NCBI RefSeq assembly: GCF_026712205.1
Contig: NZ_JAPPUW010000025.1
Span: 1-61,258, forward strand
Source of the DNA: Pelomonas aquatica
Lineage (GTDB): Bacteria; Pseudomonadota; Gammaproteobacteria; Burkholderiales; Burkholderiaceae_C
Reading direction: 5' to 3'
DNA: 61,258 nucleotides
Under the pieces are notes generated by a model. That model did no database searches. It was not told the origin of the DNA and worked only from the letters and a program-made list of their open reading frames with translations. A program made the position numbers and the translations under genes. How positions within the stretch are numbered: the stretch's first letter is position 1; each line of letters begins with the position of its first letter. Of the stretch, positions 2,046 through 19,644 are shown piece by piece.

Positions 2046-2053
2046 GCGCTCCC

Positions 2054-2557: not shown

Positions 2558-2559
2558 GC

Positions 2560-3249: not shown

Positions 3250-3973
3250 GCCACTGTTCCCCGACGCCACCTTCCCCGCGCTGCGAGCCGACCTATTCGA
3301 CGTGCCTACGCAGGAACGGCTGGCCGTCTCGGTGCCGCCGCAGCACCGCCCGCGCTTCTTGATGCTTTACGGCTCGCTGCGCGAGCGCTCCTACAGCCGG
3401 CTGCTGACCTTCGAGGCCGCCCGCCTGCTGGAGGCCATGGGCGCGGAGGTGCGCATTTTCAATCCCAGCGGCCTGCCGCTGCCCGACGACGCGCCAGACA
3501 CCCATCCCAAGGTGCTGGAGCTGCGCGAGCTGGCGGCGTGGTCCGAAGGCATGGTCTGGTGCTCACCCGAGCGACACGGCGCCATGACCGGCATCATGAA
3601 GGCGCAGATCGACTGGATTCCGTTGTCGTCCGGCTCCGTGCGGCCCACGCAAGGCAAGACGCTGGCCGTCATGCAGGTGTCCGGCGGCTCGCAGTCCTTC
3701 AACGCCGTCAACCAGATGCGCGTGCTGGGTCGCTGGATGCGCATGCTGACCATCCCCAACCAGTCTTCCGTGGCCAAGGCCTTCGCCGAGTTCACCGAAG
3801 ACGGTCGCATGAAGCCCTCGTCTTTCTACGACCGCGTCGTGGACGTGATGGAGGAGCTGTTCAAGTTCACGCTGCTGACCCGCGACCTCGGGCCCTATCT
3901 CGTGGACCGCTACAGCGAGCGTAAGGAGAGTGCCGAGGAACTGTCCAAGCGCGTGAACCAGCGCGCGATCTGA
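3242..3973 (+). CDS. arsH: ArsH organoarsenical oxidase (NADPH-dependent FMN reductase)
   Basis: A 243-residue flavodoxin-like protein of the ArsH family. It has the FMN-binding motif [10 protein letters not shown] (about residues 43-52), [10 protein letters not shown] near 113-122 and the [12 protein letters not shown] segment. ArsH uses NADPH and FMN to oxidise trivalent methyl- and aryl-arsenicals to less toxic pentavalent forms. With ArsI this gives the operon two routes against organoarsenicals. The ATG at 3242 overlaps the aquaporin reading frame, which suggests translational coupling. Confidence 0.95.
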
Positions 3974-4208
3974 CACCCCACGGGGCCACGGCCCCGTTTC
4001 TCTGGCACAGGTAGTTGCTATTCACATCCAAATGCCCGAGTCCTCAGCTGGCAGCCTGCTGCGCGAAGTCGCCCGCATGTACACCCGCGCCCGGCGGGGC
4101 GTGGCGCGACGTGAGCTGGCGGCAGCCCGAGGTTGCAGATTTGGAGTGCAACGCATTGAAGTCGGCTGCCACGCCTCCGCTGGGGTGCCTTGACCCGCAG
4201 GACGTGAG

Positions 4209-4526
4209 CTACTCGACCTGGGGGCAGGCGTGCGACGACTGAGTTCCCTTGCGGCAGCTCTGGGTCAGATAGCTAACGACGGAGTCCATCCGGCCGCAGT
4301 CCGCGCGGTAGATCAGATTCCGGCTGGCACGCTGTTGAGTCACAAGGCCGGCGTTGACCAGTTCCTTGAGGTGAAAAGACAGCGTGGCCGGCGCCACTCC
4401 CAAAGCTTCATGAATCGCGCCAGGCGTCAATCCAGCGTCGCCGACCACCACCAGCGCGCGGAACACCTGTAGGCGCATCGGTTGCGCCAACGCAGCCAAC
4501 CCCTTGACGACATCAGCTTCTTCCAT
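4209..4526 (-). CDS. arsR: ArsR-family repressor divergent from the ADO-like gene
   Basis: A 105-residue ArsR-family protein close in sequence to the repressor at 741-1061; both share APATLSFHLKELVN in the recognition helix. The metal-site region differs: SCRKG replaces NCCQG, and a single Cys follows in SSHACPQ, so the thiolate geometry is changed. It is transcribed away from the ADO-like gene at 4850 across a 323 bp gap and is the obvious candidate to control that cluster. Recognition helices this similar suggest the two repressors may read overlapping operators. Confidence 0.9.
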   Translation of the reverse strand: MEEADVVKGLAALAQPMRLQVFRALVVVGDAGLTPGAIHEALGVAPATLSFHLKELVNAGLVTQQRASRNLIYRADCGRMDSVVSYLTQSCRKGTQSSHACPQVE

Positions 4527-4849
4527 ATTTCCGTCTTTATGGAATCAATTTGACATTGCAAGCACGCGTGAGGTGGCAGAAGTGCCGGAAATCTCCCCCT
4601 GAGATACGGGGGTAGACGCCGGTGAGAGTGGAGCGATCGGTGCGAACGCAGGTCGTGGTCCCGCGGCGCCGTTTCTCCCATGAGACAGCACCCATTTCTC
4701 AGATCTGAGTGCGTCCCGAAATCCATGATCTACACGCTTCCAGGTGCATAAGAACTAAGCAACTAGGGATGTGTGCAGAAGACGGCCTTGTCTATTATGA
4801 GCATGCATGCACACACCTGCACGCATTTTTATTTTTAACCGGAGCGGTC
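4527..4849 (+). promoter_or_regulatory. Divergent promoter/operator region between arsR and the ADO-like gene
   Basis: A 323 bp gene-free stretch. TTCCATA near 4521-4527 and TATGGAA near 4539-4545 form an imperfect dyad overlapping the arsR start and could be an ArsR operator. Before the ADO-like gene the DNA turns AT-rich (about 4820-4840), and GGAG at 4841-4844 sits 5 bp before the ATG. I cannot fix -35 and -10 boxes with confidence. No further open frame with support is seen here. Confidence 0.45.
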
Positions 4850-5725
4850 ATGGATGCAATGGCACAAACGCAGGGCGGGTCGCGAGACGCGGCTCTGCAA
4901 GCACTTTCCAGTTCGCGTGCAGAGCGGCACGGCAAGGACAAGCGGTACTTCGACCTGATGGCCTACATCGTGTCGAACACGATCTCTGGCGAGATCATGG
5001 CTGTCGAGAACTACTCGGAGATGGTCCCCATCATGGGCGACACCGAGGCCAAGATCGAGACGGTCAAGCAGGCCAACGAGGAGTCCAAGCACATTCGCAT
5101 GCTGGCGAGCCTGGGCAAGCGTCTGGACTACCCGGTCAAGACCGAGATCGTCGAGCCGCAGTGGAAGGCGATTCGCGGCCACTTCTCCTCCGCGGTCAAG
5201 AAGAAGGACCTGGCGGCCTGCCTGATCATCCAGGACCTGATGACCGAGACCATGGCCATCGTCTTGTACAAGACGCTCGGCCGCGACACGGACTCCGACA
5301 CCGCGCAGGTTGCCGGCCTGATCCTGTCCGACGAGATCGAGCACCTGGGTATCGGCGCCCGCCGCATCAAGGCCATGCTCGAGAAGGATCCCGAAACGGT
5401 GCACGACGCACTCGTTTGGGCGCATCACCGCGTGATGCCCGAGCTGTTCAGCATGATCAGCACGAGCTGCCACTCGCTGTGCGCCGAGCTGTCCGTCGAC
5501 TGCGGCGGCATCGGCCTCGACAGCATCGCCACGGACATCGAGAAGCTGCGTGTCGACGCCCTCGATGCCTACATGGAGACGCTGGATCTCGTCGGCTTTG
5601 ACCACAAGGTCACGATGCCGCTGATCGCCAGCATGTCCAGCTACGGCGTGCAACCCAAGGCGGACCTGCGTCTGCGCTCGGATGCGCCTTCGGCCTGCAG
5701 CACGCAAGCCGGCGCCTGCTGCTGA
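4850..5725 (+). CDS. ADO-like ferritin-fold diiron protein (aldehyde-deformylating oxygenase homologue)
   Basis: A 291-residue helical protein that aligns along its length with cyanobacterial aldehyde-deformylating oxygenase, which turns fatty aldehydes into alkanes. All six carboxylate/histidine iron ligands appear at the expected spacing: Glu48 (SGEIM), Glu78 and His81 (EESKH), Glu133 (MTETM), Glu162 and His165 (DEIEH). The segment LIIQDLMTET and the ending MSSYG also match the family. Extra features are an N-terminal extension and a tail ending CSTQAGACC. Placement in an ArsR-controlled operon with a matching acyl reductase-type gene at 7143 suggests an aldehyde pathway. Substrate and product are unknown, and another diiron oxygenase activity is possible. 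Confidence 0.8.
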   Translation: MDAMAQTQGGSRDAALQALSSSRAERHGKDKRYFDLMAYIVSNTISGEIMAVENYSEMVPIMGDTEAKIETVKQANEESKHIRMLASLGKRLDYPVKTEIVEPQWKAIRGHFSSAVKKKDLAACLIIQDLMTETMAIVLYKTLGRDTDSDTAQVAGLILSDEIEHLGIGARRIKAMLEKDPETVHDALVWAHHRVMPELFSMISTSCHSLCAELSVDCGGIGLDSIATDIEKLRVDALDAYMETLDLVGFDHKVTMPLIASMSSYGVQPKADLRLRSDAPSACSTQAGACC

Positions 5726-5758
5726 GTCGTCGAGCTAGACAGTAAATGAGGCGGCGCT

Positions 5759-6682
5759 ATGAATGACTTGAGAGCGATGCTCGAGTTCATCGTCTATGAA
5801 GGCGCAATCCTGGCGCTGCTCTTCTTCACCATCGCGTTCGCGGTTGCGATGCTCCAGCAAAGTCTGGGCAACAAGCTGAATGACGCGCTGGGGAAGACTT
5901 CGCTTGAAACAGGCACGGTGCTGGCGGCGACCGCCGGGGCAGTCACGCCGTTCTGTTCATGCTCGACCGTGCCTGTGCTGTCCGGCATGTTGCGGGCGAG
6001 GGTTCGCTTCGGCATTTGCTTCACCTTCCTGATCTCGTCGCCGGTGATCAACGAGGGCGTGCTGCTGGTGCTGCTGCGGGAGTTCTCGCTGGCGATTGCA
6101 GTCGTGTTCCTGCTGGTGGCCGGCCTGCTGTCGATCGCATTCGGCATCGCGCTGGATCGGCTTGGGTTTGCCAGGTTTCTGCGGCTTGCCGGGCCGGGCT
6201 TCGACATCGATGACGCCGTGAGGGTGAGTTCGCCAGGCGGGGCTCCGGCGACGCCGTGGGGCATGCGTGCGCGCTTCGCGGTCATGGCAGCGCTCAACGA
6301 GTTGCGCGCCTCAGGACCCTACCTCGCGGTTGGCATCGCGATCGGCGCCCTGATCTACGGCTATGTGCCGGAAGACGCCATCGCGCAACTGCAGCACCAG
6401 TTCCCCGGGCTGCTGCTAATCCTGGTGATGGCCATTGCGGGCCTGCCGTTCTACGTCAACGCGACCATGGTGATTCCGATTGCCGTGGCGCTGCTTGGCA
6501 AGGGCGTCGCCATCGGCCCCGTCGCTGCTTTCCTGGTGTCCGCCGCGGGCACCAGCATCCCCGAAATGATCCTGCTGACGAAGCTCTTCCGCGCTCCGTT
6601 GGTGGTGTCGCACGTGGTCGCCATCGTCGTATCGGCCACGGTCATCGGCGTCGTCCTCGAGTGGGCGTCGCGGTTCATTTAA
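5759..6682 (+). CDS. ArsP-like / DUF318 permease
   Basis: A 307-residue membrane protein with about eight predicted helices and the signature TPFCSCSTVP at residues 63-72 (Cys66, Cys68), typical of the ArsP/UPF0718 permease family. A paired second half-motif, FYVNATMVIPIAVAL, lies near residue 229. ArsP exports trivalent organoarsenicals such as methylarsenite and roxarsone(III). The neighbouring ADO-like and ArsD-like genes fit export of an arsenic-containing or thiol-reactive compound, but the substrate here is inferred. It begins 33 bp after the ADO-like gene. Confidence 0.8.
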   Translation: MNDLRAMLEFIVYEGAILALLFFTIAFAVAMLQQSLGNKLNDALGKTSLETGTVLAATAGAVTPFCSCSTVPVLSGMLRARVRFGICFTFLISSPVINEGVLLVLLREFSLAIAVVFLLVAGLLSIAFGIALDRLGFARFLRLAGPGFDIDDAVRVSSPGGAPATPWGMRARFAVMAALNELRASGPYLAVGIAIGALIYGYVPEDAIAQLQHQFPGLLLILVMAIAGLPFYVNATMVIPIAVALLGKGVAIGPVAAFLVSAAGTSIPEMILLTKLFRAPLVVSHVVAIVVSATVIGVVLEWASRFI

Positions 6683-6696
6683 CAAAGGAGACGAAG

Positions 6697-7140
6697 GTGT
6701 TCAACCCCAGCAATCTGCTCAAGATGATCTTGCCCTGCTGCGCAACCGGATCGTCTGACCCCGGAGCGATGAAGGCCCTGCTCGACAAGAACAACATCGG
6801 CATCCTTTCTGCCGCCTGCTGCGACTCGACCGCAGGCGCCAAAGACGAGGGCTTGAAGAAGAGCCTGCGGGAGGCGATGGAGAAGTCGGGCGACAACCGC
6901 GCCGTCATCGTCGACACGATCACCAGCGCCCAGCAGCAGTTGCGCAGCCTTGAAGCACAAGCCGACCCCGGCCAGAAGCAGCTGATCCAAAGCGTGGTCA
7001 CGCTGTTCCAAGCCAACGGCCTCTCGATCTTTCCGCTCCTGATCATCAACGGTCGCGTCGCCTTCTATGGCGGCATCCCGACCGCGGAAATGATTCAAGA
7101 GCGCCTTGAAAAACAACCCTTGACCGCATTGGGTGCCTGA
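6697..7140 (+). CDS. ArsD-like thioredoxin-fold protein with two vicinal Cys pairs
   Basis: A 147-residue protein starting at a GTG with an AAAGGAG ribosome site 7 bp upstream. Vicinal cysteines stand at Cys14-Cys15 (LPCCATG) and Cys41-Cys42 (AACCDS), and the end (IFPLLIINGRVAFYGGIPTA) matches the cis-Pro strand and last helix of ArsD-type thioredoxin folds. ArsD hands As(III) to the ArsA ATPase, but no arsA is present, so here it may pass metalloid or an organoarsenical to the permease just upstream. Compared with classical ArsD (about 120 residues), it has an added helical insert near residues 50-90. Confidence 0.6.
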   Translation: MFNPSNLLKMILPCCATGSSDPGAMKALLDKNNIGILSAACCDSTAGAKDEGLKKSLREAMEKSGDNRAVIVDTITSAQQQLRSLEAQADPGQKQLIQSVVTLFQANGLSIFPLLIINGRVAFYGGIPTAEMIQERLEKQPLTALGA

Positions 7141-7142
7141 CC

Positions 7143-8354
7143 ATGGACAAGACACTGCGCGCCGTGCCCTTTACGGCCAGCCACATCCTCGTGACCGGCG
7201 CGACCGGCTACATGGGTGCACTGATCGTTGCCTCGTTGTTGCGCGATACGGCAGCGCAGGTCACTTGCCTCACGCGGTCCATGCATGACCGCCAGGCACT
7301 GCTCGAGCCCATCATCGAAGAATGGATGGCGCAAGGCCCGGAGCCCTGGACGCCCGAAGTGGCCCAGCGCATCGCGCAAATCCAACTGCCTGCCGATCTC
7401 GCCGACGTGCCCGACCTCGGGCCGCAGCTGGACGGTGTCGACGAGATCATCCATTGCGCGGGCTGCCTGGACTACTACGACCTGCCCAAGCTGCAGGAGG
7501 TCAACGTTGCCTACACCGCGCACCTGCTGATCCTGGCAAGGCATCTGACCTTGAAGCGCTTCGTCTACATCTCGACGGCGTATTCGTCGGGCTATCAGCC
7601 TCACATCACCGCCGAAGCGCAACTGCCCGACCCGCCGGCCGATCCGACGCAATACACGCGCACCAAGCGCGACGCCGAGCGGCTGGTCGCCGCGAGCGGC
7701 GTGCCTTTCCTGATCATCCGCCCGTCCATCCTCATCGGCAGCAGCACCACGGGCCGCTACAGCGGCAAGCGCTACGGTCTGTACCAGCAGTGGATGGGGC
7801 TCGAGCGCCTGGCATGCGATCGCTATCACGCCGAGTTCCACACCGTCGCGCCCGAACTGCCCTTGAATGTCCTTCATCAGGACGCCTTCTGCGACGCATT
7901 TAAGGACGCCTATCACTGGCTGCCCAACGGCGCTTGGATGAATCTCGTGTCCAACCCGCAGACCTCGCCATCGATGCGAGACCTCTGGGACATGTGGTTC
8001 GAGGTCACGCGCCCGCAGACCATTTACTACTACGCCGGCTTCGACGACGTGCCGTTCAAGGCGATCCCGACCCGGCAGCGCGCCTACCTGACCTTCGCCC
8101 AGGTCAATCTGGAAATCGCCTCGCATCACTGGCAGTTCGAGACGCAGTGGCTGGATCTGCTGAAGGCCGCTGGGCTGCAGTTCGCCGACGCGACGGTGGA
8201 CTCGGTGCGGATCTGCCAGAACCGGTTCGTCCAGTCTTCCGAGCAAGTGGGCAAGTACCTGGCGGCGCACGGCGCGGAACTCGCTCCGCATCCGAAGGTC
8301 ATCGAGGTCCCCTCCGAAACAAAGGTGGCTGAGCGCGCGGTCGCGCACAGCTGA
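7143..8354 (+). CDS. Thioester/fatty-acyl reductase-type SDR (NAD_binding_4 family)
   Basis: A 403-residue extended short-chain dehydrogenase. It shows the nucleotide motif TGATGYMG (18-25), the active-site Tyr171-x3-Lys175 (YTRTK) and an upstream Ser/Thr in YISTAYSSG. This subgroup includes carboxylic/thioester reductase domains and the male-sterility-type acyl-CoA reductases, which release aldehydes from acyl thioesters. In one operon with an ADO homologue it would supply the aldehyde, echoing the cyanobacterial acyl reductase plus ADO alkane pathway. It is not a clear orthologue of cyanobacterial AAR, so the pairing is functional inference. It starts 2 bp after the ArsD-like gene. Confidence 0.72.
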   Translation: MDKTLRAVPFTASHILVTGATGYMGALIVASLLRDTAAQVTCLTRSMHDRQALLEPIIEEWMAQGPEPWTPEVAQRIAQIQLPADLADVPDLGPQLDGVDEIIHCAGCLDYYDLPKLQEVNVAYTAHLLILARHLTLKRFVYISTAYSSGYQPHITAEAQLPDPPADPTQYTRTKRDAERLVAASGVPFLIIRPSILIGSSTTGRYSGKRYGLYQQWMGLERLACDRYHAEFHTVAPELPLNVLHQDAFCDAFKDAYHWLPNGAWMNLVSNPQTSPSMRDLWDMWFEVTRPQTIYYYAGFDDVPFKAIPTRQRAYLTFAQVNLEIASHHWQFETQWLDLLKAAGLQFADATVDSVRICQNRFVQSSEQVGKYLAAHGAELAPHPKVIEVPSETKVAERAVAHS

Positions 8355-8365
8355 GAAGTGTTGCC

Positions 8366-9235
8366 ATGAATCTCCGACTCCCCACTCTCGCCGCCACACT
8401 CGCTCTCGGCCTTGCGCTCGTCGCACCTGGCCTGGCCGCGGCGCAGGGCATCCTCGAACGCGTCAAGCAGGCCGGCGTCGTCCGCATCGGCACGGGTAAC
8501 GACACGCCGCCGATGAACTACCTCGACGACACCGGTAAGTGGACCGGCTTCGACGTGGAGCTGGGCGATGAGATTGCCAAGCGCCTGGGTGTGCGCGTCG
8601 AGCGCGTCGCGGTCAACAACAAGACGCGTATCGCCTTCCTCGCCAACGGGCAGATCGACATGGCACTGTCGAACATCAGCCGCACGCTCGGGCGCGAGGA
8701 ACAGGTCGACTTCGTCGATCCGCCGTACCTTTTCACCGCCAAGGTCTTCTACGCGAAGAAGGGCCGCTTCAAGTCCCTGGCCCAGCTGGGTGGGAAACGC
8801 ATCGGCGTGAACCAGGGATCTAACGCCTTCACGGCGGCGCCGGCCGAGCTGGCCAAGCACTCCAAGCTTGAACCGCAGATCCTGTCCTTCCAGAAGAACG
8901 CTGAGTGCTTCCTCGCGCTCAAGCAGGGAAAGATCGACGCGTTCACGCAGGACACCCCCATCATCGCTGCGGTCGTCGGCGCAGAGGGCTCCGCGTTCGA
9001 GGCTGTCGGCGCTGGCTACAGCCCTGGCCTCTACTCGATTGGCGTGCCGCAGAACGACAGCAAATGGCGCTATGCCGTCAGCGTCGCGCTGCAGTCCGTC
9101 ATCAAGGACGGCACCTACGAGCAGCTCTATCAGGCCTGGTTCGGGCCCAAGGGCAAATATCCCCTGCCACTCAACGCGCGCCCCCGCCTGCCCGCCGATG
9201 TCTACGGCGAAGCAGCCATGGTCTGGCCGGACTGA
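8366..9235 (+). CDS. Family 3 periplasmic substrate-binding protein of a polar amino acid ABC transporter
   Basis: A 289-residue protein with a Sec signal peptide (residues 1-26, cleavage near AAAQG) and the family 3 solute-binding layout, including RIGTGNDTPPMNYLDDTGK, GFDVELGDEIAKRLG and the GVNQGSNA loop. The relatives bind glutamine, glutamate, cystine or similar polar amino acids. It is the first of four genes (binding protein, ATPase, two permeases) forming a complete importer inside the arsenic-linked cluster. The ligand cannot be read from sequence; cystine or a glutamate-like arsenical would fit the setting. Confidence 0.87.
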   Translation: MNLRLPTLAATLALGLALVAPGLAAAQGILERVKQAGVVRIGTGNDTPPMNYLDDTGKWTGFDVELGDEIAKRLGVRVERVAVNNKTRIAFLANGQIDMALSNISRTLGREEQVDFVDPPYLFTAKVFYAKKGRFKSLAQLGGKRIGVNQGSNAFTAAPAELAKHSKLEPQILSFQKNAECFLALKQGKIDAFTQDTPIIAAVVGAEGSAFEAVGAGYSPGLYSIGVPQNDSKWRYAVSVALQSVIKDGTYEQLYQAWFGPKGKYPLPLNARPRLPADVYGEAAMVWPD

Positions 9236-9277
9236 GTCCTTGCATCTGAGCTGATCCCAGCGCTCCAGGGAGGAGTC

Positions 9278-10021
9278 ATGATCGATTGCAAATGTGTGAT
9301 CAAGCGCCTGGCGGGACGTGAAGTCCTCAAGGGTGTCGACCTGCACGTCGTCAGTGGCGAGACGCTGGTCCTGTGCGGCCCAAGCGGCGCAGGAAAGACG
9401 ACCTTCCTGCGCGCCATCAACGGCCTCGAGCCCATCGACGGCGGAAGCATCACGATTGACGGCTGCCCGGTGTGGCCGAGCAAGAGGGGGGCGCGCGAAC
9501 TCAAGGGCAAGGTCGGCATGCTGTTCCAGCACTTCAACCTGTTCGATCACCTGAGCGCCCTGGACAACATCTGTCTGGCACCGCGGCAGGTTCTCGGCGT
9601 GTCCAAGGCGGAGGCCGAGCGACGAGCACTGGAGCTCCTCGACGATCTCGGACTCGCAGGCAAGGGGGCCCATCACCCATCGCAACTATCGGGCGGCGAG
9701 AAGCAGCGCGTGGCGCTGGCGCGCTGCCTGGCGATGAAGCCCTCGGTGATGCTGCTGGACGAACCGACCTCGGCGCTCGATCCGGCCAGAACCGCGCAGA
9801 TCGCGGAACTCGTGCGCAAGCTCAAGAGGTCCAACGTGGCGACCATCATCGTCAGCCACGACCAGCAGTTTGCCTATGAGGTTGCCGATCGCATGGTGTC
9901 GCTCGAATCCGGGCGCCTGGTGAACCTGCACGACGACTCATCCTGCTGTGCGGCCGTTGCATCGCTGAAGCATGCCGCGCGCTCGATGCGCCCCAGCTTC
10001 TCTGCACCTGCGCCGGTCTGA
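9278..10021 (+). CDS. Polar amino acid ABC transporter ATP-binding protein
   Basis: A 247-residue GlnQ/HisP-type ATPase. It has Walker A GPSGAGKTT (residues 35-43), Q-loop FQHFNLFDHL, signature LSGGEKQRVALARCLAM, Walker B VMLLDEP and the switch His (SHDQQF). It powers the importer formed with the two permeases that follow. The C-terminal extension carries DDSSCCAAV, a vicinal cysteine pair not normal for GlnQ proteins and reminiscent of tails on other proteins in this cluster. GGAGG about 7 bp before the ATG is a good ribosome site. Confidence 0.93.
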   Translation: MIDCKCVIKRLAGREVLKGVDLHVVSGETLVLCGPSGAGKTTFLRAINGLEPIDGGSITIDGCPVWPSKRGARELKGKVGMLFQHFNLFDHLSALDNICLAPRQVLGVSKAEAERRALELLDDLGLAGKGAHHPSQLSGGEKQRVALARCLAMKPSVMLLDEPTSALDPARTAQIAELVRKLKRSNVATIIVSHDQQFAYEVADRMVSLESGRLVNLHDDSSCCAAVASLKHAARSMRPSFSAPAPV

Positions 10022-10030
10022 GGCATCGCC

Positions 10031-10753
10031 ATGATGACCTACGACTTCGACTGGGCGTTCCTGGCCAAGCCGCAATTCCGCGACATGGTCTTGGATGGCA
10101 TCGCGAGCACGGCCGCCCTGGCCGTGCTCTCCGGTCTGCTGTCGTTCCTGCTGGGCAGCCTGCTTGCTGCAGCGCGCCTGTGGCCGTCGGCCTGGGTGCG
10201 CGTCCCGGCCAACTCGGTCGCGGAGGTCGTGCGCAACATCCCCGCGCTGTTCTGGATCCTCTTCTTCTACTTCGTGTTGCCGGAACTGCTGCCGGATCCC
10301 ATGGGCGCGGCACTGCATGCCTGGGGCGGTTACTCCTTTGCCGCTGGTGTCATGGGACTGGCCGTCGACAACGGCGTCTACCTCTCCGACATCGTTCGCA
10401 ACGGAATGATCAAGGTGTGTCGAGGGCAGCGAGACGCCGCTGCCAGCTGTGGCATGTCGGTATGGCAGGAGTGCATGTGGGTGCTGTGCCCACAGTCGCT
10501 GCGAAACATGATGCCGGCGATCACGAATCGCATGATTCACAACTTCAAGAACACGTCGCTGTGCGTGGCGATCGCGCTGCCGGAGTTGACGTGGGCCACG
10601 CAGCAGATCGAGTCGATCACTTTCAAGGGCCTCGAGGCCACGCTGGTCGCCACTGCCGTCTATGCGATCGGCTCCTTGCTCATCGCATCGGCGATGTCCT
10701 ATCGGCGCCGCATCAAGCTGGATGCGCCAACCGCTGCTGATGCAGCCGCGTGA
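10031..10753 (+). CDS. Polar amino acid ABC transporter permease (first)
   Basis: A 240-residue inner-membrane permease of the HisM/GlnP type with about five membrane helices. The cytoplasmic coupling loop (GQRDAAASCGMSVWQECMWVLCPQSLRNM) holds the usual EAA-region position, but Asp and Cys replace some common residues. Two adjacent ATG codons (10031, 10034) are equally usable. The stop overlaps a possible GTG start of the next permease, so the two are translationally linked. Confidence 0.9.
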   Translation: MMTYDFDWAFLAKPQFRDMVLDGIASTAALAVLSGLLSFLLGSLLAAARLWPSAWVRVPANSVAEVVRNIPALFWILFFYFVLPELLPDPMGAALHAWGGYSFAAGVMGLAVDNGVYLSDIVRNGMIKVCRGQRDAAASCGMSVWQECMWVLCPQSLRNMMPAITNRMIHNFKNTSLCVAIALPELTWATQQIESITFKGLEATLVATAVYAIGSLLIASAMSYRRRIKLDAPTAADAAA

Positions 10754-10755
10754 CC

Positions 10756-11496
10756 ATGGACCTGCGGCTTTTCCTCATCGGCACCTTCCCCGAAGGCGTC
10801 ATCGGCGGTCTTGGACTGAACTTGATGATCGCCTGCTCGGCATTCATCACGAGCTTCTTGCTCGGCCACATGCTGGCAGTCGGCCGCCTGAGCCGTCTTG
10901 CCCCGCTGCGGTGGGCGTGCACGGGCTATATCGAGCTCGTACGTTCCGTTCCGCTGCTGATCGTGCTCTTCTGGTTCTTCTTCGCGGTGCCCATCCTGCT
11001 GAAGACGCCCGCGTCCCCGATTTGGACGGCGCTGATCGCGCTGACCGCCTATGGCGCGGCCTACCAGGCCGAGTACATCCGATCAGGCATCCGCTCTGTC
11101 GCCGCTGGCGAGATCGAGGCCGCCCGATCGCTCGGACTATCCGCCGCCAACGTCTGGCTGCAGGTCATCTTGCCGCAGGCCCATCGCCGCATGCTGCCGA
11201 CCTACGCCAGCTACTTCACCTCCATGTTCAAGGACAGCTCGGCGCTGTACCTCGTAGGCCTCGTCGACCTCATGCAGACAGGCTTGATTGCCGCCGAACG
11301 CAACCCCGACCGCATGTTGCAGTCCTACCTGACTGTGGGCGGCCTGTTCTTCATCGTTTGCTGGCTGGGCACGCGCGCCGGGAAGTTCCTCGAATGGAAG
11401 TTCGCACTGCGTGATCCCGGTTCGGCTGGCTCAAGCGCGCACCCACCCTCGCCGTCACCCAACCCCATCAAGGAGAACAAGCATGCACATGCGTAA
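10756..11496 (+). CDS. Polar amino acid ABC transporter permease (second)
   Basis: A 246-residue permease, partner of the preceding one, with five to six membrane segments and a canonical EAA loop (AGEIEAARSLGLSAANVWLQVILPQA). I chose the ATG at 10756; a GTG at 10750 that overlaps the previous stop is an alternative. The last 14 bp overlap the OsmC gene start, so importer and OsmC protein are expressed together. Confidence 0.9.
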   Translation: MDLRLFLIGTFPEGVIGGLGLNLMIACSAFITSFLLGHMLAVGRLSRLAPLRWACTGYIELVRSVPLLIVLFWFFFAVPILLKTPASPIWTALIALTAYGAAYQAEYIRSGIRSVAAGEIEAARSLGLSAANVWLQVILPQAHRRMLPTYASYFTSMFKDSSALYLVGLVDLMQTGLIAAERNPDRMLQSYLTVGGLFFIVCWLGTRAGKFLEWKFALRDPGSAGSSAHPPSPSPNPIKENKHAHA

Positions 11497-11956
11497 TCAG
11501 ACTGAGCGCCACTTTGGCGCTCGTATCGAGTTCGTCGAAGGCTTCAAGTTCAAGTCGCAGGCGTTCGAAGGCGAGGCCCTGCATGGCGCGCCGGTCATCA
11601 CCGATGAGCCCGATCCTGTCGGCAGCAATGCCGGGCCGTCCACGCCTTCGATGCTGGCGATGGCCGTCGGGCACTGCCTCTCGGCGAGCCTGGTCGAGAC
11701 GCTCCGGCACACGGGCATCTATGTCCTGTCCTTGTCCACCGAGGCCATTGCCATCGTTGTTCCCAACGATGAAGGCAACCCGCGGATCAAGGAGATCAGG
11801 GTCACGATCACGCCGGTCGTGGAGAAGCCGTCCGGGAACATCGCCCGCTGCATCGCGGTGTTCGAGAACTACTGCACCGTGTGCCAGTCGATCCGGCCGG
11901 CCATTCCGGTGCATGTCGAAGTCCCGGTCGTCATCAAGTCGCCCGTCGCGGCCTGA
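11483..11956 (+). CDS. OsmC-family thiol peroxidase-like protein
   Basis: A 157-residue OsmC/Ohr-fold protein. The two family cysteines are visible in AVGHCLSASL (about residue 64) and ENYCTVCQSI (about residues 131 and 134). OsmC proteins reduce organic or fatty-acid hydroperoxides through a Cys pair. The ATG at 11483 has AAGGAG 7 bp upstream, which decides the start. In a cluster with an O2-using diiron enzyme, it may clear lipid peroxides or repair thiols; that role is inferred. The extra Cys of the CTVC motif is unusual. Confidence 0.82.
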   Translation: MHMRNQTERHFGARIEFVEGFKFKSQAFEGEALHGAPVITDEPDPVGSNAGPSTPSMLAMAVGHCLSASLVETLRHTGIYVLSLSTEAIAIVVPNDEGNPRIKEIRVTITPVVEKPSGNIARCIAVFENYCTVCQSIRPAIPVHVEVPVVIKSPVAA

Positions 11957-11994
11957 GCCGAGAGCGTCAAACAACCAAGCAAGGAGACACCAAG

Positions 11995-12720
11995 ATGTCC
12001 AAGCAAGAGCAAGTCGTCGTTGCCGTGAGCGGCCTGACCAAGGGGTATTCACAGGGCGGCGCCAACGTCGCGGTGCTCAACGGGTTGAAGATGTCGATCC
12101 GGCGCGGCGAGTCCGTGGCCATTCTTGGAGTCTCTGGAACTGGCAAGTCCACCTTGCTCAACATCCTCGGCGGCATCGACCCGGCGGACAGCGGTCAGAT
12201 GTCGGTCGAAGGACAGGACATCGTCAAGCTCGACGCCGAGGGACTGGCGCGGTATCGGCGCGAGAAGGTCGGCTTCATCTTTCAGTTCTACAACCTGATC
12301 CCGACGTTGACTGCGGTCGAGAACGTCATGACCGGCTGGGAAGCAGCAGGCAAGCCTTCCAACCTGGGCGACAAGGCCGCGCGGGACATCCTGGCCTCGC
12401 TGGGCTTGCGCGACAAGCTGGACCGTTTTCCCGAGCAGTTGTCGGGCGGTGAGCAGCAACGGGTCGCCATTGCGCGCGCCCTGGTCAAGCGGCCCGCCAT
12501 CGTGCTCGCCGACGAACCCACCGGCAATCTGGACCCCAAGACGGCGGCGGCCACGACGGAGCTTCTGCTGGAGCAGGCCAGGCAGTTCGCGAGCGCATTG
12601 ATCATCGTGACGCACAACCCGTCCATTGGCCAGCACACCGACCGCACGCTCGTCCTGCGCAATGGCGTCCTGGAGGAGCAGCAGCACGCTGCTTCGGCCC
12701 CAGAGGCGTACGCAGCATGA
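11995..12720 (+). CDS. LolD/MacB-type ABC transporter ATPase
   Basis: A 241-residue ATPase of the MacB/LolD/FtsE class, with Walker A GVSGTGKST (about residues 44-52), signature LSGGEQQRVAIARALV, Walker B IVLADEP and TGNLDPKT. It pairs with the FtsX-domain permease that starts 4 bp inside its 3' end. This class does not act as a usual pump; it extracts lipids or lipoproteins from the inner membrane or drives mechanotransmission. The start has AAGGAG 9 bp upstream. Confidence 0.92.
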   Translation: MSKQEQVVVAVSGLTKGYSQGGANVAVLNGLKMSIRRGESVAILGVSGTGKSTLLNILGGIDPADSGQMSVEGQDIVKLDAEGLARYRREKVGFIFQFYNLIPTLTAVENVMTGWEAAGKPSNLGDKAARDILASLGLRDKLDRFPEQLSGGEQQRVAIARALVKRPAIVLADEPTGNLDPKTAAATTELLLEQARQFASALIIVTHNPSIGQHTDRTLVLRNGVLEEQQHAASAPEAYAA

Positions 12721-15071
12721 TCGCGCGCCAACTTGTCGCAGCCATGCGCCGCGCGGCATGGCAGATGAAGGGGCGACTCTTTGCCGCCGGACTGATCATG
12801 GGCACGGCGCTCGCCATGTTCGTTGGCGTGTACAGCGCCATCGACAGCCTCTTCGACTCGAGGGCGGGTTGGTACAAAGAGTTCAACGTCGCCAAGCTCG
12901 AGTTGCGTGTTGTTCCCGAAGACAACATCAACATTCCGAGGCTTGAGGGCATCGATGGCGTTCAGGCCGTCGAGCGCCGTTTGATGCTTCCCGGCAATAT
13001 CGATACCAAGGCCGGCGCCAAGCTCTACGCGGTGATGATCGCGACGGAGAAGTCGCCCATCGTGAACCGGCTGCGCATTGACGAGGGGCAGGATCTCGAT
13101 CCGTCTCAACCGACGGCTGTGGTGATCGAGCGGTCGATGGCGCAGCATCACGACTACAAGGTGGGCGACAAGTTCCGCCTCAACATCGGCAAGGATCACT
13201 ACGACCTGACCGTGCGCGGCATCGCCATGTCGCCTGAGTTCCTGATCGACAGCGCGAACCCGAACTTCTTCCTGCCCAGCAAGGGCTCGCTGGGCGCCGT
13301 ATTCGTTCCCTACTCCCTGGTGCAACCCCGCCTGGGCTACCAGTTGGTCAACAGCCTGCTCGTCGACATCAAGGACGGGGCAGACCATCGCGCCGTTGAG
13401 AAAGCGGCCCTGAAGGCGCTCAGCAAGAAGGTCACGGTTGAGGAAAGTCTGCCGCTGGAGCGGCAGTTCGGTCACCTCTATCTCGAGCTGGACCTCGGTG
13501 CGTTCGAGATCTTCGTGCCCGCCATCGTGCTGATCTTCGTGTTGACCGCGTTGGTGATCACGGTGTTCCTGCTGTACCAATGGATCAACGAGAAGAAGGC
13601 CGAGATCGGCGTGATGATGTCGATCGGCTATCGGACGCGGGACATCATGCTGTCCTTCGCGATGCCGGCGGCCCTGATCGGGATGATCGCCATCATCTCG
13701 GGCACCTTGCTGAGCTTCGTTCTCCTGTACGGCTTCGGGACGGACTACGCCAAGGCCCTCGGCCTTCCAGAGCCCAACCTGACCCTGCGCGCGTTGCCCC
13801 TCGTCCAGGGCTATCTCGGCTTGTTAGCGATCCTGATCGTCGCGACCGCGATCCCCTTGCGCAGCATCCTGCGCATGACGCCTCGAGAAGCGGTGCGCGG
13901 CAACACGCAAGACAGCGGCACCGTCGCAGGCAAGGTCAGCGCAGGACTCGGTCGACTCAGCCAATCGGTGGCTTGGCGCTATGCCGTGCGCAACCTGCAA
14001 CGCGGCAAGGGCCTGGCCCTGATGTCTGTCGTGGCGGTGGCCTTGTCTCTGGGCGCCTCGCTGTCCTACTTTGTTTCGCTCACCTCCTTCGAGCAGAGCA
14101 TCGTGAAGCGATTCAGCACGGACGATTGGGACGTCGCGGTCGACTTCCTCGCGCCCGTCTGGACGGACGAGCTCGCCGACATCAAGAAGACGGCTGGTGT
14201 AACGCGTACCGACGCCTACCTGCGTGGGACCATCAAGGTCCAAAAGGGCGACAAGGTCGAGCCGTCCTTCCTGCTCGGCATCGATCCCGCAAGCGGCGCC
14301 CGTCAGCTGCGCATGATTGCCGGCCGCAAGGTGCAGGCGGGTGAACGAGACGCCATCGTGCTTGAGCGCAAGACGGCGGACACCCTGGGCGTGGGCGTCG
14401 GGGACGAGGTGTCCATCGATGTGAGGGACAAGGCCTGGAAGACCAAGGTCGTCGGCATCTTCTCCGGCGTGCTGCCCGGCGAGTCCTACGCGTCGCTGGC
14501 TGATGCCCAGGCTTGGTTTGACATGGACGACCAGGTCACGGGCATGTTCCTGAAGACCGGCGCAGGCTTCGGGCAACTCGACGAGCTCTACAAGCTCGAC
14601 CGAGTGGGCCGAGTGACCTCGAAGGCGAACCTTGTCCACGAGTTCGTCGTCCACCTGAAGGAGATCGCCGGCATCGTGTACCTCGCCTTCATCTTCAGCC
14701 TCCTGGTGGCGGTGCTGTTCCTGTTCTCCACCACGGCCTATGGGGTGCTGAGGCGGCTGGCCGAGTATTCGACGCTGCGCACGATTGGCTTCGCCGACCG
14801 CACGGTCCTCAAGATGATCCTGTTCGAGGTTGCCACCATCGGCGCCGTTGGCACCGTGGTCGCCGTCGCGGCCGGCATCGCGATATCCACTGGGCTGAAT
14901 GGCGTGTTGAGCAATGCGTGGTTCCAGGTCGATACGACCATCACGCTGCAGGACATGCTGGTCGTGCTGCTGCCCGCACTGATCTTCCTGCCTCTGACGG
15001 CCATTCCTCCCTTCAAGACCATTGTTCGCGCCGGCATGGTGCCGACGCTTCGCCGGAGGGCGTTCGGATGA
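12717..15071 (+). CDS. FtsX-domain ABC permease (LolCE-like, duplicated)
   Basis: A 784-residue membrane protein with two repeats of the same plan: a first helix (about 20-40 and 435-460), a large periplasmic domain, and a three-helix FtsX block (about 255-385 and 640-770). LolC and LolE are separate half-size proteins, whereas here both halves are fused, as in other lipid-handling ABC3 permeases. With the LolD-like ATPase upstream and the LolA-like and barrel proteins downstream, it forms a full route from inner to outer membrane. The cargo is unknown. Confidence 0.87.
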   Translation: MIARQLVAAMRRAAWQMKGRLFAAGLIMGTALAMFVGVYSAIDSLFDSRAGWYKEFNVAKLELRVVPEDNINIPRLEGIDGVQAVERRLMLPGNIDTKAGAKLYAVMIATEKSPIVNRLRIDEGQDLDPSQPTAVVIERSMAQHHDYKVGDKFRLNIGKDHYDLTVRGIAMSPEFLIDSANPNFFLPSKGSLGAVFVPYSLVQPRLGYQLVNSLLVDIKDGADHRAVEKAALKALSKKVTVEESLPLERQFGHLYLELDLGAFEIFVPAIVLIFVLTALVITVFLLYQWINEKKAEIGVMMSIGYRTRDIMLSFAMPAALIGMIAIISGTLLSFVLLYGFGTDYAKALGLPEPNLTLRALPLVQGYLGLLAILIVATAIPLRSILRMTPREAVRGNTQDSGTVAGKVSAGLGRLSQSVAWRYAVRNLQRGKGLALMSVVAVALSLGASLSYFVSLTSFEQSIVKRFSTDDWDVAVDFLAPVWTDELADIKKTAGVTRTDAYLRGTIKVQKGDKVEPSFLLGIDPASGARQLRMIAGRKVQAGERDAIVLERKTADTLGVGVGDEVSIDVRDKAWKTKVVGIFSGVLPGESYASLADAQAWFDMDDQVTGMFLKTGAGFGQLDELYKLDRVGRVTSKANLVHEFVVHLKEIAGIVYLAFIFSLLVAVLFLFSTTAYGVLRRLAEYSTLRTIGFADRTVLKMILFEVATIGAVGTVVAVAAGIAISTGLNGVLSNAWFQVDTTITLQDMLVVLLPALIFLPLTAIPPFKTIVRAGMVPTLRRRAFG

Positions 15072-15847
15072 GCAAGCAGACCTACATCACCACAGCCCTG
15101 CTGGTGCTGGCTTCGGCAGTCAACGCTGCCGACGGCAACAGCGTCATCAAGGATTCCGAGCGGCGCATCAAGAGTGCCACCGAGAAGACCATCTATCGGA
15201 TGGAGCTGCTGGACGGCGCCGGGCAGGTCCAGCAGACGCGCGGCATCGAGCTGTACTACAAGAAGGTCGAGGGAACCGAGACCACGCTGTTCAAGTTCAC
15301 GACGCCCCCGGTCATCCAGGGCACCGGCCTGCTGATCGTGGATGGTGGCAAACCAGTCAACGACATCTGGATGTACCTGCCGGCGACGCGCAAGATCCGT
15401 CGCATCGCCGGGTCGGAGAAGTCCAACTGGTTCATGGGTACCGAGTTCACCCATGAAGATTTCGAGGACTACAAGACCAGTGCCTACAGCTTCACGCTGG
15501 ACAAGGAAGACGAAGCCTGCGGCGAGCAGCAAAAGTGCTTCGTCGTGACGGCTTCGGCTAGCGATGCAGCCGAGAAAGAGGCGTCTGGCTACGGCAAGAA
15601 GACGTACTGGATCGAGAAGCAGACGCTGTATCCCGTCCGGATCGACTACTTCGACAAAGCAGGCGCGCCAGCGAAGCGGCTCGACGTACGAAAGCTGGCC
15701 AAGTCGGGCGAATACTGGCGGCCGCAGGTCTACGAAATGCGCAACCTGGCCAACGGCAGGACCACGCGCCTGACCGCTTCCTCTCGCGAGGTTGACGGCA
15801 AGCTGGATGACTTCTACGTGTCCCAGCGCTATCTGCGATCCGAATGA
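15068..15847 (+). CDS. LolA-like outer-membrane lipoprotein-sorting protein
   Basis: A 259-residue periplasmic protein with a signal peptide (about residues 1-20, ending SAVNAADG). The body is the LolA-like half-barrel of the outer membrane lipoprotein-sorting family, with the hallmark strand pattern DIWMYLPATRKIRRIAGSEKSNWFMGTEFTHEDFEDY. This family ferries a hydrophobic cargo across the periplasm and is often next to RND or ABC lipid exporters. Its ATG overlaps the FtsX gene stop, and its own stop overlaps the barrel gene. Confidence 0.85.
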   Translation: MSKQTYITTALLVLASAVNAADGNSVIKDSERRIKSATEKTIYRMELLDGAGQVQQTRGIELYYKKVEGTETTLFKFTTPPVIQGTGLLIVDGGKPVNDIWMYLPATRKIRRIAGSEKSNWFMGTEFTHEDFEDYKTSAYSFTLDKEDEACGEQQKCFVVTASASDAAEKEASGYGKKTYWIEKQTLYPVRIDYFDKAGAPAKRLDVRKLAKSGEYWRPQVYEMRNLANGRTTRLTASSREVDGKLDDFYVSQRYLRSE

Positions 15848-17022
15848 GGCCAGCCAAGTGCGCTGCCTGGGCGCCGCTGGTTGCGAGCCTCTTGCTGGCT
15901 TCTGGCGCGCAAGCGTCTGACGCCACCTGGGGGCTGAAGTCGACAGCCCTGGTCGGCACACCAATCGCGGACGCCGGCGACCGCTCCAGCCGGCTGACCT
16001 TGGAGCCATCCCTGAAGTGGCAGGTGCAAGGCATCGAGCTTCGCGCCAGAGAGCGCCTGCGCCGCATCGCCGGCGCGGGCGCTCATCGCGGGGACGCTGA
16101 CCTGCGCGAGCTCACGGCAGCATGGCGCGGGGATGACATCACCGTGACCGTGGGAGCCCAGCAGTTGAACTGGGGGCGTATGGACATCCTGCGGGTAACC
16201 GACGTGATCAATCCTATCGACACCTACGACTTGTTCTACGAAGAGCTGCCCGAAGCCAAGCTCGCGCAGTGGATGGCCAACTTCGAGTGGCAGGGCGAAG
16301 GTCAGACACTGCAGTTCATCGTCTCGCCTCAGGTGCCCGTCGACCGTCTGCCGACCCAGGCCATGGGCCTGCCCGTCCAGACGGATCGGCCGTCTACGTC
16401 GCTGAGCAACGCCACGCTTGCCGTCCGCTACGGCGTGGAAGCCGCCGGGTGGAACGCGGATTTCCTGGCTCTGCATGGATGGCTCTCTGCACCGACCTTG
16501 CAGCCCGTGATCGAGTCGACTGGGCCCAAGCTGCTCGGCCGGCTGTCACGGCAGACGGGTGTCGGTTTCTCCGCAGACAAACCCGTCGGCCCGGCTGTCA
16601 TTCGCCTGGAAGCGTTGTACGCGCGCATAACGCCCGAAGTTGATGCCGTGGGAACTGCGCCTGGCACCAGGACGCAGGCCTCGTTCGGATTGGGTGTCGA
16701 CGTGAGGCACGGCCCATGGTTCTTTGCGGCGCAAGCCATCGCGGCCCACGACCGAGGCACGACCGCCGGCTCCGGCAACAACGCCTTTCTGAGCCTCATC
16801 GTGCAACGGAAGTGGCTTCAGGATCGCCTGGCGGGCCGGGCAATGCATATCCGCGATTCCAGGAACGGGTCGTCGTGGAGCTCGTTGCAAATGGCCTATG
16901 AACTCACCGCCAACCAGCTGCTGCAGCTGCAATGCGATCGGTTCGACGGCGCGCCATCGACGCCATTCGGCGCTTTTGCAGACCGAAGCCGCGTTGCCGC
17001 GTCGGTCAGGTTGCAGTTCTAG
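15844..17022 (+). CDS. DUF1302-like outer-membrane beta-barrel protein
   Basis: A 392-residue exported protein: signal peptide to about residue 25 (SGAQASDA), then repeated amphipathic strands and a C-terminal SVRLQF typical of barrel insertion. The segment QQLNWGRMDILRVTDVINP resembles the DUF1302 family, whose members accompany LolA-like proteins and lipid exporters. It is the last gene of the co-directional cluster. Porin-like or acceptor function for the exported cargo is inferred. Confidence 0.7.
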   Translation: MRPAKCAAWAPLVASLLLASGAQASDATWGLKSTALVGTPIADAGDRSSRLTLEPSLKWQVQGIELRARERLRRIAGAGAHRGDADLRELTAAWRGDDITVTVGAQQLNWGRMDILRVTDVINPIDTYDLFYEELPEAKLAQWMANFEWQGEGQTLQFIVSPQVPVDRLPTQAMGLPVQTDRPSTSLSNATLAVRYGVEAAGWNADFLALHGWLSAPTLQPVIESTGPKLLGRLSRQTGVGFSADKPVGPAVIRLEALYARITPEVDAVGTAPGTRTQASFGLGVDVRHGPWFFAAQAIAAHDRGTTAGSGNNAFLSLIVQRKWLQDRLAGRAMHIRDSRNGSSWSSLQMAYELTANQLLQLQCDRFDGAPSTPFGAFADRSRVAASVRLQF

Positions 17023-17027
17023 GGTGT

Positions 17028-17444
17028 TCAGCGAAGCTGATCTGGGGGGCAGCAAACCTGGGCGGCATGTCGCAGATGCGACAGGAGCAATTCGAGCTTG
17101 CCAATGATGGCGGGACCATCGAGCTCGTACTCCGTGAACCGTTGGACGCGGTGGCTGCGCACGAAGCCGGCTTGCTCCAGAAACGCGAGGTGCCTGGACA
17201 CCACCGACCGATCCTGGACGAGGTGTTGGGCGACCTCCTGGACGTTCGAACGGCCTTCCTGCAGCAGGATCAAAACGATCTGCTGGCGAACTGGCTCCGC
17301 AATGGCCTTGAAGAAGTTCGCATCGAGCGTACTGGCCAGCGCTTCGACGGCGTTGTTCTTGGCCCGCTTTGATATGGCGCGTGGCTTGGGTTGCTCTGTC
17401 GCCACCGGTGCTTCCATATCTCGAGGTTTCTTGGCGACCAACAT
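17028..17444 (-). CDS. ArsR-family regulator closing the cluster
   Basis: An ArsR/SmtB winged-helix protein, 138 residues if begun at the ATG at 17444; another ATG at 17417 is possible. The HTH covers VQEVAQHLVQDRSVVSRHLAFLEQ, and the protein ends in HAAQVCCPPDQLR, so a vicinal Cys pair lies at the extreme C terminus. It is convergent with the barrel gene, and the two stops are 5 bp apart. It differs from the other three ArsR proteins in the window and could sense a different ligand. The basic N-terminal extension (PKPRAISKRAK) is unusual. Confidence 0.82.
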   Translation of the reverse strand: MLVAKKPRDMEAPVATEQPKPRAISKRAKNNAVEALASTLDANFFKAIAEPVRQQIVLILLQEGRSNVQEVAQHLVQDRSVVSRHLAFLEQAGFVRSHRVQRFTEYELDGPAIIGKLELLLSHLRHAAQVCCPPDQLR

Positions 17445-17546
17445 GGCTGTGATGCTAACTGTGAGTGGATGCCCGTGCCAAGGCGCGGATGTTTGCAAAG
17501 ATCAAAAATGAAACGTCTGCCGGCTCACAGAGGCCGGCCTGAAGAG

Positions 17547-17999
17547 CTACAGCTTCACCGTTAGGCGCCACGAGATCGCATGAGGCCGAATGCTGGCGCA
17601 TACCGGCCCCCCATCGCCAGCCGTTCCAAGAATACGAGCTTCGATGGCGCAGGCTGGGTCACCCACAGCGGACTCGATCAGGGGGCGAGGAATCGCGGCC
17701 AGCTTGACCTTTGCTCTGCGCTCCCAGCACGATGCCGATTGGCCAGCGAGAGTGCCGGAGTTCAGGTAGATGAAGCGGTCGGCCGGCGCGCCTTGCGCAT
17801 AGGGGCCGCGAAAGTTGAATGCCCCATCCACAAGGGGCGGCCCGAGACGCATGGTGATGGCAAACGCAACGGATTCGACATCCGATGCATAGGGCGGCAG
17901 CAGCTCGTCGCGGCCCCGTTGCACAGCAAACACAACCCCAGGTGGCGGCGCCAAGACCGTCAGCAAGAGTTGAAGTACAGGTGCGGCGCTCTGCTGCAT
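17547..17999 (-). CDS. DUF5990 family protein
   Basis: A 150-residue cytoplasmic protein of the uncharacterised DUF5990 family. Recognisable segments are VFAVQRGRDELLPP near the start, FNFRGPYAQGAPADRFIYLNSGT in the middle and SCWERRAKVKL. I took the ATG at 17999 (MQQSAA), which puts the conserved region at the N terminus; the frame stays open upstream. No function is known. It separates the arsenic-linked cluster from the mer genes and shares no obvious operon with either. Confidence 0.65.
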   Translation of the reverse strand: MQQSAAPVLQLLLTVLAPPPGVVFAVQRGRDELLPPYASDVESVAFAITMRLGPPLVDGAFNFRGPYAQGAPADRFIYLNSGTLAGQSASCWERRAKVKLAAIPRPLIESAVGDPACAIEARILGTAGDGGPVCASIRPHAISWRLTVKL

Positions 18000-18246
18000 G
18001 GGTTCCGTCCAAGTCGTCAGCCGGCGGCTAGCGTCGATGCTCGGGGAGCGAGCATCTTTACCTCCGGCCTCACATTGGAGCAGCAGCGCAGTCACTGCTC
18101 TGAACCTGGCCTTCAGATCGGCGAGCTTGCCCTAGTTGAAGTTGGTCACCAACGTAGCGCTGTCCAGAACTCGGCGTCGCATCAAAAGTCGTCAGGCAGG
18201 GGCTGCGCCGGCATCCACAACGGTTGCTTGACGCGGGCTTAGTGGT

Positions 18247-18645: not shown

Positions 18646-18653
18646 CTGCCCCC

Positions 18654-18685
18654 TTGACTCCGTACCATGGTACGGACTCTAGACT
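18654..18685 (+). promoter_or_regulatory. merT promoter and MerR operator
   Basis: A -35 TTGACT (18654-18659) and a -10-like TAGACT (18680-18685) are separated by 20 bp. The long spacer carries the perfect 16 bp palindrome CCGTACCATGGTACGG (18660-18675). Overlong spacing with a central dyad is the MerR-family promoter design. The merT ATG follows at 18722. Confidence 0.88.
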
Positions 18686-18721
18686 GTCGGCCGTCGTGTA
18701 GGTGCACCCCGGTGGAGGGCA

Positions 18722-19063: not shown

Positions 19064-19074
19064 AGGGACTCCCC

Positions 19075-19577: not shown

Positions 19578-19644
19578 AGGCTACCAACTGATTGGGTACC
19601 CCCCAATGACGAGGGTCGCCAATGTAGCCGCGCAGGCCCGGCGC

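Follow-up and report, generated by a model that had tools for sequence, protein, structure and literature searches.

We analysed a 61,258-nucleotide stretch of DNA from Pelomonas aquatica (contig NZ_JAPPUW010000025.1; hereafter the window), which is an entire contig of a 5.1 Mb genome, and describe here a gene cluster in which arsenic-type genes stand together with genes for an aldehyde-deformylating oxygenase (ADO)-like protein (ADOL), a short-chain dehydrogenase/reductase (SDR) and an apparent envelope-spanning exporter (Table 1). The cluster consists of 13 co-directional genes at 4850-17022, separated by -14 to +42 bp (successive gaps of 33, 14, 2, 11, 42, 9, -4, -14, 38, -4, -4 and -4 bp), in agreement with the single tight run reported in a preliminary description of this DNA. 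Parts were named from Pfam and NCBIfam scans of the open reading frames (ORFs) of the window, and these scans back every part name used in that description, some of them below the family cut-offs. Two ArsR-family genes flank the run, both on the opposite strand; by eye, arsR1 resembles the ArsR encoded at 741-1061, which is also slightly above the NF033788 cut-off. The limits originally drawn around the cluster were about right, except that an ars operon at 164-3973 (ArsR, ArsI, two ArsC, MIP (AqpS) and ArsH) adjoins it directly upstream. In this operon, ArsI, ArsH and the ArsR at 741-1061 exceed NCBIfam cut-offs and LMWPc and MIP matches were obtained, while the ArsR at 164-589 and the first ArsC were named by eye. 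A consensus scan of 4400-17600 returned one promoter-like site (minus strand, 17481-17452; 1.9 expected) and eight terminator-like sites against 7.2 expected, which is the chance level.

Table 1. The arsenic-linked cluster and the ars genes preceding it, with positions in the window.
Feature	Position	Strand	Basis or remark
ars genes	164-3973	+	ArsR 164-589 (-), ArsR 741-1061, ArsI, two LMWP-type ArsC, MIP (AqpS), ArsH
arsR1, ArsR-family metalloregulator, divergent	4209-4526	-	Pfam HTH_20/HTH_5; NCBIfam NF033788 slightly above cut-off
TGCA-rich inverted repeats, candidate regulator site	4798-4826		upstream of ADOL; lead only
ADO-like diiron protein (ADOL), 291 aa	4850-5725	+	six ADO metal ligands, Cys triad C207/C211/C218, CC tail
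ArsP-like permease	5759-6682	+	PF03773 (ArsP_1) 138 bits; invariant TPFCSCST
ArsD-like thioredoxin-fold protein	6697-7140	+	invariant vicinal Cys pair C41-C42
SDR related to thioester-reductase domains	7143-8354	+	PF07993 (NAD_binding_4) 96 bits; S144, Y171, K175 invariant
Periplasmic binding protein, amino-acid type	8366-9235	+	PF00497 (SBP_bac_3)
Importer ATPase, GlnQ-like	9278-10021	+	NCBIfam best match GlnQ, under cut-off
Importer permease 1	10031-10753	+	PF00528
Importer permease 2	10750-11496	+	PF00528
OsmC-family protein	11483-11956	+	PF02566 42 bits; ORF from 11411
LolD/MacB-like export ATPase	11995-12720	+	TIGR02211 219 bits (cut-off 308); ORF from 11881
784-aa permease (LolCE/ADOP-like)	12717-15071	+	two FtsX (PF02687) and two MacB_PCD (PF12704) matches
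LolA-like periplasmic lipid carrier (predicted)	15068-15847	+	PF17131 LolA_like 156 bits; ORF from 14918
Outer-membrane barrel, DUF1302-like	15844-17022	+	PF06980 23.1 bits vs cut-off 23.2
arsR2, ArsR-family regulator, convergent	17028-17444	-	PF01022 35 bits; ORF to 17498

A scan of a genome collection (84,980 species by its own description) with an ADOL alignment yielded 18 loci; it catches only exact pattern matches and is therefore not exhaustive. A whole-genome search added one further locus (G530), giving 20 including the window once duplicates had been removed (L005 is L008 and L006 is L018), and gene order was then compared among the loci by script. Seven loci, the window and L007-L012, share the window's gene order and were termed type I; the six besides the window are beta- and gammaproteobacterial, with identities of 28-85% and local changes in two. 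In L007, an ArsM-like gene (248 bits against an arsenite methyltransferase cut-off of 263) occupies the expected place of the ArsP and ArsD-like genes, and in L012 two open frames are matched by the binding protein. L009 carries ferredoxin, P450 and FA_desaturase-family genes (17181-20033) together with an arsR2-like gene between OsmC and LolD, an insertion that suggests further oxidation of an aliphatic chain. A second architecture, type II, comprises eleven loci (L013-L018, L020, L022-L024 and G530) built on an ADOL-ArsP-ArsD-like-SDR core, and in eight of them this core is accompanied by a complete divergent run encoding a PstSCAB importer, an acyl ligase, an MMPL-LolA fusion and a different barrel. 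As for the other three, no ligase was detected in G530, L020 has the core only, with a resistance-nodulation-division (RND) efflux run (ACR_tran; 3781-9634) upstream in place of the usual parts, and the contig of L023 ends upstream. A further Pseudomonas locus (G1242), left out when the types were defined, is a complete type II cluster with an ArsC-like gene behind the barrel. Finally, the two type III loci, L019 and L021, have two ADOL genes and an SDR; L019, from Sphingomonas pokkalii, holds tandem ADOL paralogues with SDR (9100-12015 and 15625-18735) and arsenite oxidase genes nearby, without ArsP.

Because the cluster is conserved in distant genomes, chance assembly of the 13-gene run is excluded, and the proposal that it forms one conserved unit holds. 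The full order recurs as that proposal would have it in the seven type I loci, but there are also loci in which the four-gene core lacks the importer, OsmC and Lol-type parts. Across all 20 loci the SDR gene lies downstream of ADOL with at most two genes intervening, and ArsP and ArsD-like genes are present in 17. Among the four core proteins, pairwise correlation of identity distances gives r 0.89-0.96, with none of 1000 permutations as high, and pairs involving OsmC or the binding protein (6-7 loci) give r 0.66-0.93, with 3 to 27 of 1000 permutations as high; such correlations retain the relatedness of the genomes and therefore indicate co-inheritance, not interaction. Type II is monophyletic in both the ADOL and SDR trees (100/100), and type I is a single group in the ADOL tree (94/93). 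ADOL is rare: besides the window's own genome, it was found in two others among 299 genomes drawn from the family, in one among 399 from the order and in none among 398 from the phylum; 199 Pseudomonas genomes gave four with ADOL, three of which had been known before. A protein search at E 1e-10 gave 485 relatives, of which 120 were listed. This patchy distribution suggests horizontal transfer of the cluster. Carriage by plasmids or viruses was considered and rejected, as no relative of P0001 was found in plasmids and none of P0001 or A1 in viral contigs.

The ADOL protein shows the ADO fold with its six metal ligands, and in addition has a Cys triad that is kept in 78/78 sequences and lies beyond the point at which the sequence alignment of ADOL with ADO stops. 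This triad is not known to contribute when cyanobacterial ADO simply forms alkanes. Selenocysteine was considered on account of in-frame stops in some homologues; in L025 the stop is an ordinary one past which the gene model ran, and the idea was rejected for that case only. The SDR retains S144, Y171 and K175 together with the nucleotide motif T18, G19, G22 and G25 in 20/20 loci, and by sequence it comes nearest, among solved structures, to the reductase domains of MxaA and AusA.

The two proteins encoded between ADOL and SDR are both thiol-bearing. The ArsP-like permease passes the PF03773 cut-off (138.4 bits against 32.3), its only NCBIfam matches being SO_0444 Cu/Zn efflux and SaoE, both under their cut-offs, and the motif TPFCSCST is present in 17/17 proteins; the ArsP family is known for organoarsenical efflux. 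The ArsD-like protein reaches only 15.5 bits (E 0.022) against PF06953, under the Pfam cut-off of 27. A profile-profile comparison nevertheless relates it to ArsD at E 2.7e-6 with the Cys pairs aligned, and its structural model is thioredoxin-like (predicted local distance difference test, pLDDT, 83.0), with ArsD among the tied fold matches. A search of PDB sequences gave no sound match among the 60 listed of 130 (best E 0.026). The vicinal Cys pair is present in 17/17 ArsD-like proteins, none of which has a third Cys at the place of ArsD C18; C12, C13 and C18 are invariant among six aligned ArsD sequences.

The modules around this core differ between the two architectures. Type I has an amino-acid-type binding protein, and its alignment to AncQR retains an Arg and an Asp with a ligand-binding role; in the complete type II clusters the phosphate-type PstSCAB importer replaces it. 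Since the importer class differs between types, uptake of a polar thiol or amino acid, with which the pathway originally envisaged began, is not the constant and is unsupported as first worded. Delivery of a lipophilic product to the outer membrane, the remainder of that pathway, fares better: the genes fit it, and eight type II loci have, in place of the lipid-export part, another exporter of that kind, composed of an MMPL-LolA fusion and a barrel. This exchange suggests that the constant feature is the export of something hydrophobic. The carrier in the window belongs to PF17131, a family related to LolA rather than LolA itself, and has no NCBIfam match at 1e-8; the assignment of the barrel is weak because its DUF1302 score falls just under the cut-off. 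Parts common to type I and full type II clusters are the reductase and the ADO-fold enzyme, a pair of thiol-bearing proteins of arsenic type (with a single ArsM-like protein in their place in L007), an importer, and a chain of pump, carrier and barrel.

Regulation also varies. The bracket of ArsR genes noted earlier is present in the window but is not general, since arsR2 gives way to a LuxR-family gene near the cluster in 14/20 loci (all 11 type II loci and the type I loci L010, L011 and L012), and is itself found in the window, L007 and L009; no regulator was identified in L008. The motif GTACTAT lies upstream of ADOL in 11 of the 13 LuxR loci scanned, being absent from L012 and L014. In each of seven of the loci retrieved there is exactly one copy of the longer TATGTACTAT, upstream of ADOL, and shuffles attain ATGTACTAT upstream of ADOL in at most 1/300, several of the motif-bearing loci being near relatives; the 10-mer is found upstream of ADOL in G530 and G1242 too. 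The best motif matches in the three type I LuxR loci are weak (shuffle p 0.06, 0.15 and 0.71). Upstream of ADOL in the window, L007, L008 and L009 there are instead four to seven TGCA per 350 bp. An operator common to arsR1 and the ArsR at 741 was also sought and rejected, as no shared 9-mer was found.

The link to arsenic was examined with ten marker proteins, counting matches of at least 95 bits in the stretches examined around the 19 loci besides the window. At least one marker was found in 11 of the 19, although some of the marker queries derive from these loci and one match is the ArsM-like gene inside the L007 cluster. The others are ACR3 and ArsC in L011, ArsC in L014 (weak, 100 bits), AqpS, ArsC and ArsI in L015, ArsC and ArsH in L016, L022 and L024, AioBA in L018 and L019, AqpS in L020, and ACR3, ArsC and ArsI in G530. 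By eye, ArsR and ArsB lie upstream of ArsC in L016 and L022. Four of the 20 genomes have an AioA above the curated cut-off, within about 7 kb of ADOL in L018 and L019 and on other contigs in the remaining two; the window's genome has no AioA match. Arsenite methyltransferase family members were found in 6/20 genomes at E 1e-30, two of them above the cut-off. In two Pseudomonas type II clusters (L048, 581-3473; L059, 21-5006) the cluster is followed by arsR, arsB, arsC and arsH (arsR and arsB by eye), and L059 also has ArsO-like and ArsN-like genes by eye. On its other side, the window cluster adjoins mer-like genes at 18247-19353 (a MerR-family regulator and MerT by Pfam, MerP-like by eye); mercury in place of arsenic was considered on this account and set aside, with mer genes examined in the window only. 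By eye, the mer-like genes are succeeded at 19645-30621 by a second MerR-family regulator, a P-type ATPase (20193-22469) and a CzcCBA-like RND efflux system (24974-30621), and at 31327-60904 by a mobile region with a transposase, IstAB-like and integrase-like genes, a Tn3-like transposase (51949-55053) and two similar blocks near 32.7-36.8 kb and 45.2-49.8 kb.

The sequence data establish a gene unit conserved in two architectures, its setting among arsenic genes, the predicted folds of its proteins and the conservation of their catalytic and thiol residues. We tentatively favour an arsenic-linked system for lipid assembly and export whose exported lipid carries arsenic. In such a system the SDR would convert an acyl thioester to a fatty aldehyde, the acid first being activated by the acyl ligase in full type II clusters, and the ADO-like diiron enzyme would cut the aldehyde to a chain one carbon shorter (Cn-1). 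The vicinal Cys pair of the ArsD-like protein could hand As(III) to ArsP or to the Cys triad of ADOL; arsenic would thereby enter the lipid or be kept away from it. The pump, LolD/FtsX in type I and MMPL in type II, would then extract the product from the inner membrane, after which the LolA-like carrier would ferry it through the periplasm and the barrel would release it; the product is perhaps an alkyl-arsenical. ADO enzymes act through an alkyl radical at the diiron centre, and the arsenic hydrocarbons of seafood have alkyl chain lengths of C15, C17 and C21:6. In a more specific version, which fits the parts but is in our judgement improbable, ADOL would itself form the C-As bond, the alkyl radical left by formate removal being caught by As(III) held on the Cys triad and supplied by the ArsD-like protein. 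The resulting long-chain alkyl-arsenical would be further methylated in ArsM-bearing bacteria and then exported to the outer membrane. If true, this would be a route to the C-As bond without S-adenosylmethionine (SAM) or enolpyruvate chemistry, and it would explain why the alkyl chains of seafood arsenic hydrocarbons are one carbon below common fatty acids.

Several observations weigh against the arsenic-lipid reading. ADOL scores 67.1 bits against TIGR04059 (aldehyde-deformylating oxygenase), under the equivalog cut-off of 222.65, the SDR 83.2 bits against TIGR01746 (thioester reductase; cut-off 213) and the LolD-like ATPase 218.9 bits against the LolD equivalog cut-off of 307.75, while the Cys segment of ADOL is modelled with middling confidence (pLDDT about 67-71). 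In the midpoint-rooted SDR tree type I is split, four beta loci lying nearer type III and the other three nearer type II, and the type III loci have neither ArsP nor an exporter. No arsenic marker was found in the flanks examined of eight of the 19 loci (L008, L009, L010, L012, L013, L017, L021 and L023), and per stretch the excess is modest, at 11/52 against 1/20 random 20-kb stretches from six of the genomes, the single control match being a 28% AioA match. Furthermore, no arsenite methyltransferase match was obtained in the window's genome at E 1e-30, so that a methylated arsenic lipid is unsupported there. Some of these points fit a different scheme, in which arsenic is only the trigger and an ordinary hydrocarbon, aldehyde or alcohol is put into the outer membrane, lowering its permeability, with ArsP and the ArsD-like protein acting separately. 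We regard this as rather unlikely, although it draws on the same enzymes and exporters, the type III loci hold ADOL and SDR without ArsP, the window's genome lacks the methyltransferase match, and enzymes of acyl chains or hydrophobic substrates lie nearby (ferredoxin/P450/FA_desaturase in L009, a desaturase in L021 and FA_hydroxylase in L019). It leaves unaccounted for the position of ArsP and ArsD-like genes between ADOL and SDR in 17/20 loci, their substitution by an ArsM-like gene in L007, and the invariant Cys triad.

The cluster might also serve breakdown, a lipophilic or amino-acid-like organoarsenical being imported and cleaved by the diiron enzyme and its arsenic expelled through ArsP. 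The amino-acid type of the type I importer, the ArsI and ArsH genes adjoining the window cluster and the known role of the ArsP family are all in line with such detoxification; yet the reductase, acyl ligase, LolA carriers and outward pumps would be left unexplained and the full type II clusters have a phosphate-type importer, which makes it unlikely. Least probable of all, we think, is a repair of thiols or membrane lipids under metalloid stress, in which OsmC, SDR and ADOL would process reactive fatty aldehydes or oxidised lipids ahead of their removal. OsmC is present in 7/7 type I loci and ArsR genes stand at both ends of the window cluster, which speaks for this reading, but OsmC was not found in the examined flanks of the 13 type II and III loci, and dedicated export across the envelope would be unusual for repair. 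The system itself couples arsenic genes to what resembles an envelope-spanning exporter and chemistry on fatty aldehydes, its two architectures having a common core and different pumps, and the presence of the cluster in culturable bacteria (Pseudomonas, Azohydromonas) would make the origin of arsenic lipids testable.

To our knowledge, known arsenic systems act on arsenic itself, by oxidation, reduction, methylation or pumping, or produce small organoarsenicals, and we found none that combines the parts seen here, as the preliminary description had supposed. Among titles and the opening lines of abstracts, no literature linking ADO or fatty aldehyde decarbonylase to arsenic or arsenite oxidase was found, and a term search of PMC3954881 found no decarbonylase and a single mention of arsP. 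For the making of C-As bonds, a review (PMC12159101) names the bsn route alongside SAM-dependent and radical SAM enzymes, and PMC11009773 attributes arsenic lipid synthesis in algae to 'several yet unknown pathways'. The bisenarsan (bsn) cluster of Streptomyces resembles ours in being arsenic-linked, with an acylated organoarsenical product and resistance genes alongside (PMC12159101); in contrast, neither EPSP-synthase-like and phosphoglycerate-mutase-like genes, which serve C-As bond formation there, nor decarboxylase or polyketide synthase domains were found by Pfam among the 13 window genes. The arsinothricin (arsQML) and arsenosugar clusters likewise link arsenic metabolite genes to ars genes, but Pfam found no radical SAM domain among the 13 genes, and an ArsM-like gene lies within the cluster in only 1/20 loci (L007). 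Arsenic islands (aioBA, ars, pst, phn) join aioBA and pst-type genes with ars genes (PMC3834237), an arrangement that the type II and III loci fit; the abstract of that paper mentions no lipid module, however, and the terms decarbonylase, LolA and fatty are absent from its main text. Closer in its chemistry is the cyanobacterial alkane pathway (acyl-ACP (acyl carrier protein) reductase and aldehyde-deformylating oxygenase), which similarly has a reductase gene near an ADO-fold enzyme with the same fold and six metal ligands, whereas the reductase of our cluster groups with thioester-reductase domains, ADOL has an invariant Cys triad and falls under the NCBIfam ADO cut-off, and arsenic and export genes are added. 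Finally, the export parts recall LolCDE-LolA lipoprotein sorting and the MMPL/HAE3 exporters in their LolD-like ATPase, FtsX permease and LolA-like carrier, and in the type II MMPL fusion, but they fall under the LolD and HAE3 cut-offs and are distinguished by fused FtsX halves, a barrel of their own and biosynthetic genes in the same run.

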